From assembly GCA_028066695.1 (NCBI GenBank), contig JALCBG010000003.1:3043-67042 (forward strand): a stretch of 64,000 nucleotides of DNA, read 5' to 3'. Shown piece after piece: positions 482-6,162 of this stretch (the stretch's first letter is position 1; every line of letters begins with the position of its first letter). Position numbers and translations under genes: made by a program. The notes under the pieces were generated by a model, which was not told the DNA's origin, made no database searches, and saw only the letters and a list, made by a program, of their open reading frames with translations. The DNA comes from Gammaproteobacteria bacterium. Lineage in GTDB: Bacteria; Pseudomonadota; Gammaproteobacteria; Arenicellales; Poriferihabitantaceae.

Positions 482-625
482 TTTGCGGGACTCCTGAAAG
501 GAGGCGGAGTATACCCGCCCGCGCCCGCGCCGTCAACCGAATGCCGCCGGAAATGCGAAATTTTTCGGGCGCAAATTGCCGGTTCGGAGCGGCTGCGGGA
601 CCGCCGCAGACCGCCCCAAGTCGGC

Positions 626-631
626 TACAAT
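626..631 (+). promoter_or_regulatory. Probable -10 element (TACAAT) for ispB
   Basis: TACAAT lies 26 bases before the ispB ATG inside GGCTACAATCCCGC. The same TACAATCC string precedes two other plus-strand genes in this window at a similar distance. The -35 region is not convincing, so the call rests on the -10 and its position. Confidence 0.4.
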
Positions 632-657
632 CCCGCTTCCACCCCGCCACCACCGCC

Positions 658-1671
658 ATGACCCAGTCCCACGCGGCCGCGCAAATCGCGCCGCCCGAGC
701 CCGATCTCCTGCTGCAATCGGCGACCGATTTGGTCGCGCCGGAATTGGAGGCGGTCGACCGCGTCATCCGCGCGCGGCTGGACTCGGACATTGAATTGAT
801 CCGCGCGCTCGGCGCGCACATCATCCAAAGCGGCGGCAAACGGCTGCGCCCGATGATTTTGCTGCTGAGCGCGAAAGCCGCCGGCTGCCGCGGCGACCAC
901 CACATCCTGCTCGCCGCGGTGATTGAATTCATTCACACCGCGACGCTGCTGCACGACGACGTGGTGGACGCCTCGGCGATGCGCCGCGGGCGCGCCACCG
1001 CCAACCAAATCTGGGGCAACCAGTCCAGTGTGCTGGTCGGCGACTTTCTCTATTCGCGCGCGTTTGAAATGATGATTGAGCCGGGCAACATGGAAGTCAT
1101 GCGCATTCTCGCCGCGACCACCAACACCATCGCCGAGGGCGAGGTGATGCAATTAATGAACATGCGCTCGGCCTCCACCGGCGAGGCCGAATACCTGGAA
1201 ACCATCCGCCGAAAAACCGCGGCGCTTTTTGCCGCGGCGGCGCAACTCGGCGCGGTCATCGGCGCGCGCGACGACTGGGCGCCGGCGCTCGCCGCATACG
1301 GCGGCGCGCTCGGCGACGCCTTTCAATTGACCGACGACATGCTGGATTACACCGCCGACAGCGGCGCGCTCGGCAAAAACGCCGGCGACGATTTGGCCGA
1401 GGGCAAGCCGACGCTGCCGCTGATTCACGCCATGCGCCGCGGCGATTCGCGCCAGCGCGCGACGCTGCGCCGCGCGATTGAAAACGGCGAGCGCGAGCGG
1501 CTCGGCGAAGTGCTGGAAATCCTTGCATCCACCGGCGCATTGGATTACACTGCGGAACTCGCGCGGCGGCGCGCGGCGGAGGCCGCCGATGCGCTCGCCG
1601 CCATCGGCGAATCGCCGGCAAAACAAGCGCTGATTTCGCTCGCCGATTTTGCGGCGCGGCGCGGGCGCTGA
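658..1671 (+). CDS. ispB: Octaprenyl diphosphate synthase (long-chain polyprenyl synthase)
   Basis: This enzyme extends farnesyl diphosphate with isopentenyl diphosphate to make the ubiquinone side chain, in the cytoplasm. The 337-residue protein carries both aspartate-rich motifs of trans-prenyl synthases: DDVVD at residues 100-104 and DDMLD at 226-230. It also has the early GGKRLRP segment that binds the diphosphate. The frame is open upstream to 541, but the ATG at 658 gives the usual family length (about 320-340 residues). It is divergent from rplU and followed 12 bases later by a tRNA-Pro gene. Chain length cannot be read from the sequence; octaprenyl is assumed from the family and the context. 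Confidence 0.93.
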   Translation: MTQSHAAAQIAPPEPDLLLQSATDLVAPELEAVDRVIRARLDSDIELIRALGAHIIQSGGKRLRPMILLLSAKAAGCRGDHHILLAAVIEFIHTATLLHDDVVDASAMRRGRATANQIWGNQSSVLVGDFLYSRAFEMMIEPGNMEVMRILAATTNTIAEGEVMQLMNMRSASTGEAEYLETIRRKTAALFAAAAQLGAVIGARDDWAPALAAYGGALGDAFQLTDDMLDYTADSGALGKNAGDDLAEGKPTLPLIHAMRRGDSRQRATLRRAIENGERERLGEVLEILASTGALDYTAELARRRAAEAADALAAIGESPAKQALISLADFAARRGR

Positions 1672-1683
1672 ACGGCACGACAA

Positions 1684-1760
1684 CGGGGTGTAGCTCAGAC
1701 TGGTAGAGCACTGCCTTCGGGAGGCAGGGGCCGGAGGTTCAAATCCTCTCACCCCGACCA
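1684..1760 (+). tRNA. tRNA-Pro (anticodon CGG)
   Basis: This is a 77-base cloverleaf with a 7-bp acceptor stem (CGGGGTG with CACCCCG), a D arm, an anticodon stem CTGCC/GGCAG holding loop TTCGGGA, and a T arm with loop TTCAAAT. The 3' end is an encoded ACCA. The anticodon CGG at 1718-1720 reads proline CCG. The loop sequence matches that of E. coli proK as recalled. The gene sits between ispB and the DmdA-like gene and may be co-transcribed with one or both. Confidence 0.96.
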
Positions 1761-1778
1761 GCGTCCGCCGCAACCGCC

Positions 1779-2879
1779 TTGGAAATCTTTCAAACAACCC
1801 GCCTGCGCTGCTCGCCGTTTTACGACGCGACCATCGCCGCCGGCGCCGAAGTGTTCAGCGTCTACAACCGCATGCTGCTGCCCTGCGGCTACGGCGACGC
1901 CGAGGCCGAATACTGGCGCTTGTTGCGCGGCGTTTCCATGTGGGATGTGGCGGTGCAGCGGCAGGGGGAATTGCGCGGCGCCGACGCCGGCCGCCTCGCG
2001 CAAATTTTGACGACGCGCGACATCTCCACCACCGAGGCCGGGCGCGGAAAATACGCCCCGCTATGCAGCCACAACGGCGTGCTGATCAACGACCCGGTGC
2101 TGCTGAAATTGGCGGACGACCGCTACTGGCTTTCCATCGCCGATTCCGACATTCTCTTCTGGGCGCGCGCGGTCGCCGCCGAGCGCGGATTGAACGCGCG
2201 CGTCTTTGAGCCGGATGTTTCGCCGCTCGCGCTGCAGGGGCCGAAAGCCGAGGAAGTCGCCGCGGCGATTTTCGGCGACTGGGTGCGCGAGTTAAAATTT
2301 TTCGCGTTTCGCGAAACGCAGGCCGGCGATATTCCGCTCATCGTGGCGCGCTCCGGCTGGTCCAAGCAGGGCGGCTTTGAGTTGTATCTGACGGACGGTT
2401 CGCGCGGCGGCGAGTTGTGGAATTTGGTGAGCGAGGCCGGGCGGCCGTGGGACATCGGGCCCGGCTACCCCAACGGCACCGAGCGCATTGAAAGCGGCCT
2501 TTTGTCCTGGGGCGGCGACACCGACGACGCGACCAACCCGTATGAAGTGCGCCTCGGAAAATATGTGGACCTGGATGTCGGCGACGAAGTAATCGGCATC
2601 AAAGCGCTCCGCGAAATCCACGCGCGCGGCGCGGCGCGCCACCAACTCGGCCTGCTGCTGGACGGAGACGAACCGTCGCCGCCGCATGCGCTGTGGTATT
2701 CGGTGCGGCGCGAATCAAAACACGTCGGCGACATGACCTGCGGTACCTGGTCGCCGCGCCTGAAACGCAACATCGGCTTCGCCCTGCTGGCGCGCGACAT
2801 CCTTCCGGGCGCGCGCGTGGAAGTGCTCAAGGACGGCGACGAAATCGGCGCGGATGTGGTGGAGTTGCCGTTTTTATAA
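1779..2879 (+). CDS. dmdA: DmdA-like dimethylsulfoniopropionate demethylase / GcvT-family protein
   Basis: This is a tetrahydrofolate-dependent aminomethyltransferase-fold protein of 366 residues, the usual DmdA length (about 370). DmdA moves a methyl group from DMSP to tetrahydrofolate, so that marine bacteria use algal DMSP without releasing dimethyl sulfide. Several segments resemble Pelagibacter DmdA as I recall it: VYNRMLLP near residue 30, MWDVAVQRQ, the NDPVLLKL/SIADSD stretch, and ARSGWSKQGGFELYL. The start is TTG at 1779, only 18 bases after the tRNA and with no clear ribosome site. The first ATG (1869) would remove conserved sequence. No dmdB, dmdC or dmdD lies nearby. A related GcvT-family demethylase with another substrate cannot be excluded. 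Confidence 0.68.
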   Translation: MEIFQTTRLRCSPFYDATIAAGAEVFSVYNRMLLPCGYGDAEAEYWRLLRGVSMWDVAVQRQGELRGADAGRLAQILTTRDISTTEAGRGKYAPLCSHNGVLINDPVLLKLADDRYWLSIADSDILFWARAVAAERGLNARVFEPDVSPLALQGPKAEEVAAAIFGDWVRELKFFAFRETQAGDIPLIVARSGWSKQGGFELYLTDGSRGGELWNLVSEAGRPWDIGPGYPNGTERIESGLLSWGGDTDDATNPYEVRLGKYVDLDVGDEVIGIKALREIHARGAARHQLGLLLDGDEPSPPHALWYSVRRESKHVGDMTCGTWSPRLKRNIGFALLARDILPGARVEVLKDGDEIGADVVELPFL

Positions 2880-2904
2880 CCGCGCAAAACCGCCCTATCG
2901 GGCG

Positions 2905-4588
2905 CTACGGCTTTAGCGCGTCTATCGCGGCTTTCACCGCGTCCGCGTCGGTGGCGGCGGTTTGACCGTCCAGGAGTTCGGCGTTGTCGGTAACATCCAT
3001 CAAGTGGCGCGCGATGAGAATGCCGTCGGCCGGAGTAACCGCACCGGAAGCGTCCACATCCAGCGCGCTGCGGTTTGCGTCCAAGTGCGCGGTGATGCGC
3101 GTTGCGTCGTCGGCGTCCAAGCCGGACAGGTCTGCAGTCAGGTCGGCGCCGCGCAGGCCGAGCAGATAACGCGTGACAACGACGCCGTCAATCCAGTCGG
3201 CGTCGGAATCGGCGTCCAAGTCAATGTGAAACGCCACGGGAGCGCCCTGCGCTTCGGCGCTCCAATCGCTCATGCCGCCGGTGAATTGCGCGCGCACTTG
3301 GACCGCATAAGTTGTGCCGTTGGTCAGGCTCGCGATGCGATAGGAGACCGCGCCGCCCGCGGTCTCCGCGGCGTCGTCGGAGTCGTAGTTGGCGTCGGCT
3401 GCGGCGCGCCAGCGCACGCTGTAGGTCAATTCGCCGTCGGCGGCGCCGCCGCCGTCGGCCGGCGGCATCCACATTGCAAGCAGCGCGCCGTCGGTCGCCG
3501 CGGCTTGCAGTTGCCTCGGAACGCCGGGCGCGGCGAGGGGTCTGCCGGCCGCCGATGCCGTCCACTGTCCGACACCGAGGGCATTGACCGCGGCGATTTG
3601 CACCTGGTAATTCACGCCGTTGGTCAGCGAGGACAAAATATATTCGGCGGCGTTTGCGCTGTTTTGGAATGTCCAGCCCATCCTCGGCGGCGCGGCCCGA
3701 AGACGGAGTGTGCTCCCAATCGCTGTCGTCGTTGTCATTTGACCAGCGGTAGCGGTAGCCGGTGATCGCCTTGCCGCCGTCGTCGGCCGGCGCCGTCCAT
3801 GAAAGCGTCAACACGCCGTCCCCCCGCGCCGCCGCCAAATTGGTTGCCGCCAAAGGCGGTATTACCTCCCTCGGAACGGCGCGCTGCGAATCAGCCCAGC
3901 CGCCGGTGCCGAAAGTGTTCGCCGCGGCGACTTGGACTTCGTAGGTGGTGCCGGCGGTGAGTTCGGGAATCGTGTGCGTCCTTGCGGACGCTCCGCCGGG
4001 AATATCGGCGCCGGCTTTGCCGCCGGTGTTGGAATACGTTGCGCTCGCATCCGCCGTTTTCCAGCGGACTTTGTAGCCGATGATGTCCGTGCCGTTGGTG
4101 TCGGTCGGCGGATCCCAAGCGAGATCGATGGAGCCGCGGTCCGCGGTTGCGCGGAAACTCGTCGGGTCGTCGGAGTGACCATCGCCGTGGCGAATGAGGA
4201 CCAACGTATAGTCTCTTGTGGCGCCGGATTTGGACACACGAACCACGCGAGTTCTGACCCCGCGGATAAAACGAACCTTCACTGCAACACCCGATGGAAG
4301 AGGAATGGATAGTGTGGGCGTGACTTGCAAAATGATGGTTGCATCCGCATCGGATGCGGTCGCCGTCACAAATACATATGGAAAAGTGATGCCGCTTACA
4401 ATGATGGTCGAACCCGTGCCGGTGCTCAGAACCTTGCCATGCGGATCAGCAACCACAAGGGAGCTCAGCGTCGGCGCCGGAGTTTGCGCCCATGCGCCCC
4501 CCGCAAAAAATGCGGCAAGCATCACCGCCGCCGCGCGCCCGCGCACGCCGCGCATTTTTCGATTCTGGTTGTTGCCAATTTCACGCAT
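2905..4588 (-). pseudogene. Secreted fibronectin type III / dockerin-like protein, one-base frameshift
   Basis: Two overlapping minus-strand frames together make one protein of about 560 residues. It has a signal peptide (hydrophobic stretch ending AGGAWAQ), a short N-terminal domain, about four FnIII repeats and a C-terminal pair of EF-hand/dockerin-like motifs (DGVVVTRYLLGLRG, then DGILIARHLMDVT). The first frame is FnIII down to LDIP and then turns basic. The second resumes at QNSANAAEYILSSLTNG. Removing one base of the GG at 3666-3667 restores a continuous FnIII, as judged from the homologous domains at 42993-45332. This may be a real pseudogene or a sequencing error. Translation may begin at the internal ATG at 4555, because the 4588 start lies only 8 bases from a possible TATTAT -10. 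Confidence 0.78.
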
Positions 4589-4626: not shown

Positions 4627-6162
4627 CTACACGATAACGCCCACCCCGTCGCGGCGCGGGTCGCCGAGCGCGGATATTTTTTCGCCCGCTTTTCGTTCGG
4701 CGACATGCACGCCGCCGAAAAACATGTTCGGCTCTTCAAACACGCGGTGATTCGGAAACGCATTTTGCATTTCGCGCTGCGCCGGCATTCCGGATTCCAG
4801 ATACAACGCGTCATTTTCAATGTGCATGCGCGGCGCGGCCAGCGCCTCGGGCAAATCCATGCCGAAATCTACGAGGTTGCTGACCACCTGCAAAATCGCG
4901 CTGCGAATGCGGTTGGAGCCGCCCGAGCCGAGCGCGGCCTCATAATCGTTCCCGAGCAAAATTCCCGGCGCCATCATGGAAGACATGCGCCGGTTCGGCC
5001 GCCAGCGGTGAAAACCGCCGGGATTTAAATCTTCTTCACCGAGCATGTTGTTCAGCATGAAACCGGCGCCGGGCAACAGAACGCCGCAGCCTTCGCCGTT
5101 GGAAACCGTGAGCGAGGCGGTGTTGTTCGCCGAATCCATCGCGCTGATGTGCGTGGTGCCGCGCGCGGCGCGCAGCGCCGAACCGGGCGGCGGAACTTTG
5201 CGGCGGTATTGCGCGAGCAATTCCGGATGCAGCAATTCGTCGCTGGGGCCGTCGGAAAAATGCCGGCTGCGCGCCTCGCAGGTCGCGCGCAGCGCGGCGG
5301 AGAGCGCGCGGCAATGCGCGCCGCCGCCGTGTCCGTCCGCGCCGAGGCCGGACTGCTTCAGCAATTCCAATCCGAAAGCGACCAGCAAACCGCCGGCGCT
5401 CGGCGCCGGGTTGGTCAGCAGGCGGCGGCCGTGGTATGCAATTTCCAGCGGCGCGCGTACATGGGTTTGGTATGCGCGCATGTCGGCGCGCGTCAAAAAG
5501 CCGCGGTCGCGGCACTGCTCGGCGACCGCGGCCGCGATTTCCCCTTCGTAAAAAAACGCCTCACCCTCGCGCGCCAATGTCTCCAGAAAGTCGGCGAGTT
5601 GCGGGTTGGTAAACATGTCGCCCGGCTGCGCCAATTCACCGGGGCAACTCGCGCTTTGGAAAAGTGGGAACACCGACTCGCTGCGAAAAATCGGGCCGAC
5701 CAATTTCACCAGATAGGATTGAAACGCGTTGACCTCAACGCCGGCGCGCGCCATCTCGGCCGCCGGGCGAACCAACTCGGCCATCGGCAGCGTGCCGAGT
5801 TCGCGGTGCGCGCCGAACATGCCGCGCACCGCGCCGGGCGCCGCGCAGGAGCCGAGGCCGATGTGAAACTCCTGCTGCGCCGCGCCGAAATCCACGGTGA
5901 CCGAAAAGAAATCCAACTCGCGGCCGCGCGCGTCCGGCTTGGCGCGCGGGGTGTGCGCGAAAAAATCAAACATGCGCGCCCTCCCGCGCGCGTCCCGCGC
6001 GAGCAAATACCCGCCGCCGCCCGGCGAAGCGAGCACCGGCTCGGCAACGCATGCCGCAAAAAAGCCGGCGATCGCCGCGTCAAACGCGTTGCCGCCGGCG
6101 CGCAGCATTTCGGCGGCGGCCTCGGCGGTCAGCCGGTGGCCGGCGGCGACCGCGCCTTTCAC
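4627..6162 (-). CDS. ggt: Gamma-glutamyltransferase family protein (Ntn hydrolase)
   Basis: This family cleaves or transfers the gamma-glutamyl group of glutathione and related compounds after self-cleavage into two subunits. The 511-residue protein has the small-subunit start GTTHISAMD. Thr336 is the expected nucleophile and new N-terminus. Further family features are GGGGYLLARD near residue 48, NPAPSAGG near 251 and MSSMMAPGILL late in the protein. No signal peptide is visible, so it is probably cytoplasmic, unlike periplasmic E. coli Ggt. The start is GTG at 6162. The gene follows cysK on the same strand by 45 bases, which would fit sulfur or glutathione turnover. The exact substrate is unknown. 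Confidence 0.85.
   Translation of the reverse strand: MKGAVAAGHRLTAEAAAEMLRAGGNAFDAAIAGFFAACVAEPVLASPGGGGYLLARDARGRARMFDFFAHTPRAKPDARGRELDFFSVTVDFGAAQQEFHIGLGSCAAPGAVRGMFGAHRELGTLPMAELVRPAAEMARAGVEVNAFQSYLVKLVGPIFRSESVFPLFQSASCPGELAQPGDMFTNPQLADFLETLAREGEAFFYEGEIAAAVAEQCRDRGFLTRADMRAYQTHVRAPLEIAYHGRRLLTNPAPSAGGLLVAFGLELLKQSGLGADGHGGGAHCRALSAALRATCEARSRHFSDGPSDELLHPELLAQYRRKVPPPGSALRAARGTTHISAMDSANNTASLTVSNGEGCGVLLPGAGFMLNNMLGEEDLNPGGFHRWRPNRRMSSMMAPGILLGNDYEAALGSGGSNRIRSAILQVVSNLVDFGMDLPEALAAPRMHIENDALYLESGMPAQREMQNAFPNHRVFEEPNMFFGGVHVAERKAGEKISALGDPRRDGVGVIV

Follow-up and report, generated by a model that had tools for sequence, protein, structure and literature searches.

The stretch of gammaproteobacterial DNA analysed here (64,000 nt in full, hereafter the window) carries a gene resembling dmdA that begins almost directly after a tRNA-Pro gene, which raises the question of whether it encodes a DMSP demethylase and whether it was brought there by integration at the tRNA. 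The answer that we favour, with a good measure of confidence, is that it is an intact gene for a predicted demethylase of DMSP or a related onium acid, belonging to a sister clade of DmdA (clade B), and that it would be transcribed across the tRNA; no sign of insertion at the tRNA was found.

Organisation of the locus

The features of the locus are listed in Table 1. The GcvT-fold open reading frame is uninterrupted over its 366 codons. The ORF list takes as a start the first ATG, GTG or TTG following a stop, which here is the TTG at 1779; the starts of close relatives coincide with it or differ from it by a single residue, and it is the most plausible true start. Both the TTG start and the spacing between tRNA and gene therefore stand as the earlier note gave them. 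That note had also remarked on the lack of an obvious ribosome site, which was borne out: upstream of the TTG there is no match of at least 3 nt to the anti-Shine-Dalgarno sequence, and no Shine-Dalgarno-like motif lies in the gap. However, this means little, since such a match is also lacking from 15 of the 31 long non-overlapping ORFs in the window (with crudely assigned starts) and from 59.5% of random positions; hence the feature was dropped as an oddity.

Table 1. Features around the tRNA-Pro gene, in window coordinates
Feature	Position	Strand	Basis
Polyprenyl synthetase gene (IspB-type by eye), upstream	541..1671	+	First start at 541
tRNA-Pro, anticodon CGG, intact, encoded CCA end	1684..1760	+	ARAGORN and sequence
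Gap from tRNA 3' end to TTG, 18 nt	1761..1778	+	Sequence
Clade B DmdA-like gene, 366 aa, PF01571 and PF08669	1779..2879	+	TTG start, stop ending at 2879

A simple scan of positions 1400-3100, limited to sigma-70-type consensus sites, found no promoter-like site, with 0.3 expected by chance. Given this and the 18-nt leader, the simplest reading is that the gene shares a transcript with the tRNA: the transcript would cross the tRNA, and processing of the tRNA would free the end of the mRNA.

A sister clade of DmdA

The window protein exceeds the Pfam cut-offs for both GCV_T domains, PF01571 and PF08669. Its relatives are 57-68% identical to it among the best 80 listed, and just one of the positions at least 95% conserved in 91 rows differs in it from the clade B consensus (these rows include two pairs representing the same gene, and omit L049); hence this is a real, conserved gene. 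Its best family model is the NCBI DMSP demethylase equivalog NF009133 (366.1 bits, E 1.8e-109), and the top solved relative is Pelagibacter ubique DmdA (3TFH; 267 bits, E 2.6e-78), the next scoring 117 bits. Identity to DmdA, represented by the R. pomeroyi SPO1913 type and P. ubique 3TFH, is 36-41%, with the solved structure at 36%.

Such a strong match invites the name DmdA, which was nevertheless rejected on the model cut-off of 410 bits and on the phylogeny. A tree of 45 rows grouped the DmdAs of P. ubique and of the R. pomeroyi type in clade A (13 rows, support 100/99), assigned the window protein to clade B (support 100/100 for 18 rows) and set clade C (10 rows, 97/92) apart from both. 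Scores on NF009133 were 489-646 bits in clade A, where all five proteins scanned lie above the cut-off, 355-384 bits in clade B, where none of four does (the window protein and three others), and 367-379 bits in clade C, where neither of two does. Forcing the window protein into clade A was rejected by the AU test (p=0.000393). Of the earlier note's 'DmdA-like' gene, the family and the pocket residues described below hold good, whilst membership of the DmdA clade does not, and its further supposition that the gene might truly be DmdA fails on both the tree and the score. On sequence grounds the protein is a member of clade B, an uncharacterised sister clade of DmdA.

Nor does it belong with the glycine-cleavage or sarcosine-type GcvT proteins, the placement that the earlier note had named as its refutation. 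The glycine-cleavage models TIGR00528 and NF001567 gave 105 of 235.85 bits and 152.2 of 300 bits respectively, both below cut-off. The GcvT aminomethyltransferase and the GcvT-like domain of TMAO demethylase share the superfamily, with model matches of 96-152 bits, but these are far below the cut-offs. A quick tree of 80 rows concurs with the smaller one, a long branch separating clades A, B and C together from the other GcvT-superfamily rows, to which individual identities are not assigned.

Residues of the pocket and the predicted reaction

Clades A and B have in common, among others, N107, P109, W120, S122, A124, D125, S198, Q200 and Y206 (3TFH numbering), positions at which five or more of a set of six other superfamily rows, again without individual identities, have different residues. 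The equivalents are present in the window protein as N104, P106, W117, S119, A121, D122, S195, Q197 and Y203, together with W194 and the folate-site residues D105, E201 and Y203. In the accessible text of Hernandez et al. 2020 (PMC7487153), W171 is a key residue for interaction with DMSP and is kept by homologs outside DmdA; from an offset of 26, deduced from neighbouring residues, we infer that it corresponds to W197 of 3TFH. Tryptophan occupies this position in the window protein, in 89 of the 91 clade B rows, in all ten clade C rows and in all four Pelagibacter and roseobacter DmdA rows, whereas nine of the 13 clade A rows have tyrosine. Trp197 was accordingly rejected as a mark of DmdA, and a literature query on it returned no match. 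K199 and Q200, by contrast, are common to the Pelagibacter and roseobacter DmdAs and clade B and absent from clade C. Judged from the alignment, it is the W-S-K-Q stretch as a whole that ties clade B to those DmdAs, the tryptophan alone being no marker.

Retention of this stretch makes it likely that the window protein is a folate-dependent demethylase of a DMSP-like onium compound. By homology, the predicted enzyme would bind tetrahydrofolate and a carboxylate-bearing onium compound (either DMSP itself or an S- or N-methyl onium acid related to it), pass one methyl group to the folate and release the demethylated acid, which generic acyl-CoA enzymes would then degrade. Eight positions are fixed differently between clades A and B at the 85% level (for example Q56/S53 and C93/G90), and might reflect a difference in substrate. 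Within the branch to which the window protein belongs, we consider DMSP a tentative candidate; the case for a betaine-type or other onium acid is about evenly balanced.

The nine tyrosine-bearing clade A rows (L022, L026, L029-L031, L033-L035 and L037) all come from the window's order. Four of them were scanned, all scoring above the NF009133 cut-off; judging by this residue, these nine proteins may not be DMSP demethylases.

Comparison with Ruegeria pomeroyi and known homologs

The genome of R. pomeroyi SZCCDBG043 carries one gene each of clades A, B and C. Locus L091, the product of which is 60% identical to the window protein, is accompanied (by eye) by genes for an ABC-type solute-binding protein and transporter, with no acuI. 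A second gene scores 645.8 bits on NF009133 and is followed by an AcuI-type gene, whose scores are 457 bits for the acrylyl-CoA reductase subfamily (cut-off 297) and 429.7 of 440 bits for the AcuI model. Given the lack of acuI at L091 and this separate gene over the cut-off, with its AcuI-type neighbour, identification of the window protein as DmdA through L091 was rejected. The accessible text of PMC5395565 describes dmdA followed by acuI in many roseobacters, and reports that R. pomeroyi no longer produces methanethiol once dmdA is deleted; should the deleted strain also carry the clade B gene, then clade B was no substitute for DmdA under the conditions of that experiment.

The window protein therefore resembles DmdA in family, length, both GCV_T domains, the W-S-K-Q stretch and the folate-site Asp, Glu and Tyr, but it differs in its sister-clade position and its score below the equivalog cut-off, its gene has no adjacent acuI (by eye), and no DmdD was found in the genome. 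Hernandez et al. 2020 (PMC7487153) describe non-DmdA homologs, with which it shares the conserved W171 and a position outside the DmdA clade, and clade B is probably among them; that group is named in the accessible text of the paper, which gives no substrate for it. No published function for clade B was found in the DmdA and paralog literature within reach, which leaves out most subscription papers.

Clade B genes associated with DmdD

Amongst the best-scoring 80 clade B loci listed, which are not a random sample, nine have a DmdD-type hydratase encoded within three genes of the clade B gene. Eight of these hydratases are 62-79% identical to chain 4IZB, which we take to be DmdD of R. pomeroyi, and the ninth is 47% identical; plasmid homologs of them are annotated dmdD. 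A rough control of 334 kb of other loci, unmatched by genome, gave four hydratase matches, of which two represent a single gene and all lie at or below 29%. An O-acetylhomoserine aminocarboxypropyltransferase (MetY) is encoded near the clade B gene at six loci, one detected by scan and the others by BLAST; enzymes of this type can use methanethiol. More generally, acyl-CoA ligases, acyl-CoA dehydrogenases and hydratases are recurrent neighbours of clade B genes.

One such arrangement is on a plasmid of Marivivens sp. LCG002 (L246, NZ_CP127166.1 52873-58032), where genes for the clade B protein, an AMP-binding protein, an acyl-CoA dehydrogenase and dmdD form a co-directional row, preceded by a divergent LysR gene. 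The clade B protein (WP_285772510.1) is 93% identical to that of Mesorhizobium. Its annotation is merely that of a glycine cleavage T barrel protein.

A search with the DmdA model covered 19 genomes of 20 loci, many of them metagenome bins of unstated completeness, with the ninth DmdD-linked genome (L111) left out. No DmdA over the cut-off was found in the eight DmdD-linked (among them that of the cultured Rhizobium sp. FKL33, locus L088), six MetY-linked or three Marivivens-type genomes searched, whilst both genomes of a type with a crotonobetainyl-CoA-hydratase-like gene, discussed below, had one. In a separate set of eight clade B genomes, three had DmdA over the cut-off. Because of the adjacency to DmdD and the lack of a DmdA over the cut-off from all eight DmdD-linked genomes searched, clade B may include a second type of DMSP demethylase.

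One extension of this would make the window gene itself a DMSP demethylase, with clade B as a second lineage supplying MMPA to enzymes of the DmdB, DmdC and DmdD types. The DmdD association, the Marivivens row, the lack of a DmdA over the cut-off in the DmdD-linked and MetY-linked genomes searched and the retained W-S-K-Q stretch all argue for it. However, in the clade B tree (from which L049, L044, a duplicate, and L017 were omitted) eight of the nine DmdD-linked genes fall in one subclade of 21 rows that excludes the window, and no link to DmdD was seen in the window's own branch, nor a DmdD match in its genome. The phenotype of the R. pomeroyi dmdA deletion would also weigh against it if the deleted strain, like SZCCDBG043, has genes of both clades B and C, as would the statement in the accessible text of PMC10041152 that DMSP supported growth of R. 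pomeroyi only, and not of Marivivens donghaensis HF1, if HF1 has the operon. We therefore hold this extension to the window gene as possible but doubtful.

The window's genome and genus

The genome from which the window derives (2.08 Mb, 92% complete) offers few of the partners expected of a DMSP demethylation pathway. The earlier note's observation that the later pathway genes are missing beside the gene can be widened: there are no DmdB-model, DmdC-like or DmdD-like matches on the window's contig, and in the assembly as a whole, at the stated completeness, there is no DmdD (best match 34%) and no DmdB over the cut-off (best 312.9 of 822 bits). A DmdC-like dehydrogenase is present, 47% identical to the Mesorhizobium one, and other ligases and hydratases could stand in for the missing DmdB and DmdD. 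The genome has one BCCT transporter.

On another contig, locus L216 (G000:C17:44000-60000) encodes an SDR protein, an acyl-CoA dehydrogenase, an ADP-forming ligase, an M24 protein and a carnitine 3-dehydrogenase. The last of these is over its cut-off, and shares a 10-kb stretch with a ligase and a dehydrogenase whose identities to their counterparts at L113, one of the clade B loci described below, are 40% and 59%. In two congeners, G001 (scanned) and G003 (by eye), choline-dehydrogenase-like genes adjoin the equivalent stretch. The candidacy of this dehydrogenase, ligase and hydratase stretch as the genome's DMSP pathway is weakened by the carnitine 3-dehydrogenase and by these choline-dehydrogenase-like genes. 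The M24 protein resembles DddP (375.6 of 600 bits); as it lies below the DddP cut-off, no claim of a DMSP lyase is made for this genome.

The clade B gene itself is present in all four genomes of the genus, whilst elsewhere in the family, across 20 genomes, the best matches are 32-47% identical. Two trees put loci L098 and L099 (from one genome) and L113 close to the genus (support 88-90), a placement on which the careful 45-row tree gave no resolution; the three are near-identical and were counted as one lineage. In them the clade B gene accompanies genes for an acyl-CoA dehydrogenase, an ADP-forming CoA ligase and a protein resembling crotonobetainyl-CoA hydratase (301.6 of 500 bits). In congener G001, the genes directly before the clade B gene encode a protein similar to gamma-butyrobetaine dioxygenase (263.5 of 414.75 bits), a ligase of the ADP type and a hydratase.

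These neighbours suggest another substrate for the window's branch, namely a nitrogen betaine, demethylated with folate in the catabolism of carnitine, gamma-butyrobetaine or choline. The DmdA over the cut-off in the genomes of both L098/L099 and L113 points the same way, since clade B would not then be needed there for DMSP, as does the carnitine 3-dehydrogenase stretch of the window's genome with its L113-like ligase and dehydrogenase. Against this, the placement by way of L098 and L113 is weak and comes from a single lineage, and the carnitine stretch lies on a different contig from the clade B gene. Moreover, three of the four genus genomes encode Rieske oxygenases able in principle to demethylate betaine; being so widespread in the genus, these were dropped as a discriminating test. 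Overall we consider a nitrogen betaine unlikely, if still worth weighing, as the specific substrate of this branch.

A DmdA gene of the clade A type, interrupted by a single in-frame stop, is present as well in congener G001 (L245, G001:C183, about 4917-6008, minus strand), and reflects either a pseudogene or a sequencing error; its N-terminal piece is 70% identical to clade A, 54% to clade B and 46% to clade C. No second match as strong as this copy was listed for the other three genomes of the genus.

Implications for DMSP surveys

Within its uncharacterised sister clade the window gene is nothing out of the ordinary, and the notable part is the link of that clade to DmdD. A wider reading, plausible to us but short of an even case, is that clade B represents a separately evolved second lineage of DMSP demethylases, the natural partner of DmdD where canonical DmdA is lacking, as in rhizobia, sphingomonads and Marivivens-like bacteria, and missed or miscounted in surveys of DMSP genes; the window gene would be a gammaproteobacterial member acquired by its genus. 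In the accessible text of PMC5739008, for example, dmdA was counted in metagenomes with SPO1913 as the query at an E value of 1e-20. Surveys by such loose similarity would probably include long sequences of clades B and C in their dmdA counts, since the window protein by itself, at full length, reaches 2.6e-78 against P. ubique DmdA. If clade B genes with DmdD do act on DMSP, then the pathway extends to rhizobia and to bacteria of freshwater or of hosts that lack canonical DmdA; if clade B does not, then some other onium compound is the substrate of a close sister of DmdA.

The tRNA-Pro context

The earlier note regarded the 3' end of the tRNA as a common integration point. Part of the upstream polyprenyl synthetase, from 661 onward, was used as an ispB query, and at 12 of the 30 ispB loci scanned a tRNA-Pro(CGG) lies in the same orientation as ispB, 12-156 nt from the end of the ispB match. 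Three of these are in the window's genus, the fourth member of which likewise has ispB followed by tRNA-Pro, and nine are among the 13 that belong to other families within the order, with none in the 14 from other genera of the window's family. The simplest reading is that this is an old gene order, lost or moved in the sister genera; its gain in the window's genus would also fit the counts. In the comparison of the region downstream of tRNA-Pro that the earlier note had proposed, the clade B gene follows the tRNA in the window's genome (18 nt) and in G003 (137 nt), with differing genes beyond, whilst in G001 and G002 the tRNA and the clade B gene are on separate contigs.

The idea that a mobile element delivered a canonical DmdA by integrating at the 3' end of tRNA-Pro can draw on the proximity of the gene to the tRNA, the low identity of the family's other matches, the lack of the tRNA beside ispB at the 14 loci of its other genera and a weak grouping of the genus with alphaproteobacterial loci (90 and 88 in two trees, without resolution in the careful one), but we judge it highly improbable, as the window protein lies outside the DmdA clade, the tRNA is uninterrupted and its last 12 bases are not repeated exactly anywhere else in the 64-kb window (the last 2.6 kb of the contig lying beyond it), the G003 locus has the same order with a different gene downstream whilst those of G001 and G002 are split across contigs, and the GC content of the gene (0.649) is close to that of the window (0.644). 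With the ispB-tRNA-Pro order in other families and clade B in every genome of the genus, nothing found suggests a tRNA-targeted insertion. Horizontal acquisition of the clade B gene by the ancestor of the genus is a separate matter, and is possible given the family's matches of 32-47% and the weak alphaproteobacterial grouping.

Immediately downstream of the clade B gene, on the minus strand, two overlapping frames (2905-3738 and 3221-4588) appear by eye to represent a single fibronectin-type-III repeat protein with a dockerin-like end and an apparent frameshift near 3700. A gene on a Phaeobacter plasmid (L249, CP104104.1, 6968-8086; 51.5% identity, clade not assigned) lies near a trimethylamine methyltransferase family gene.
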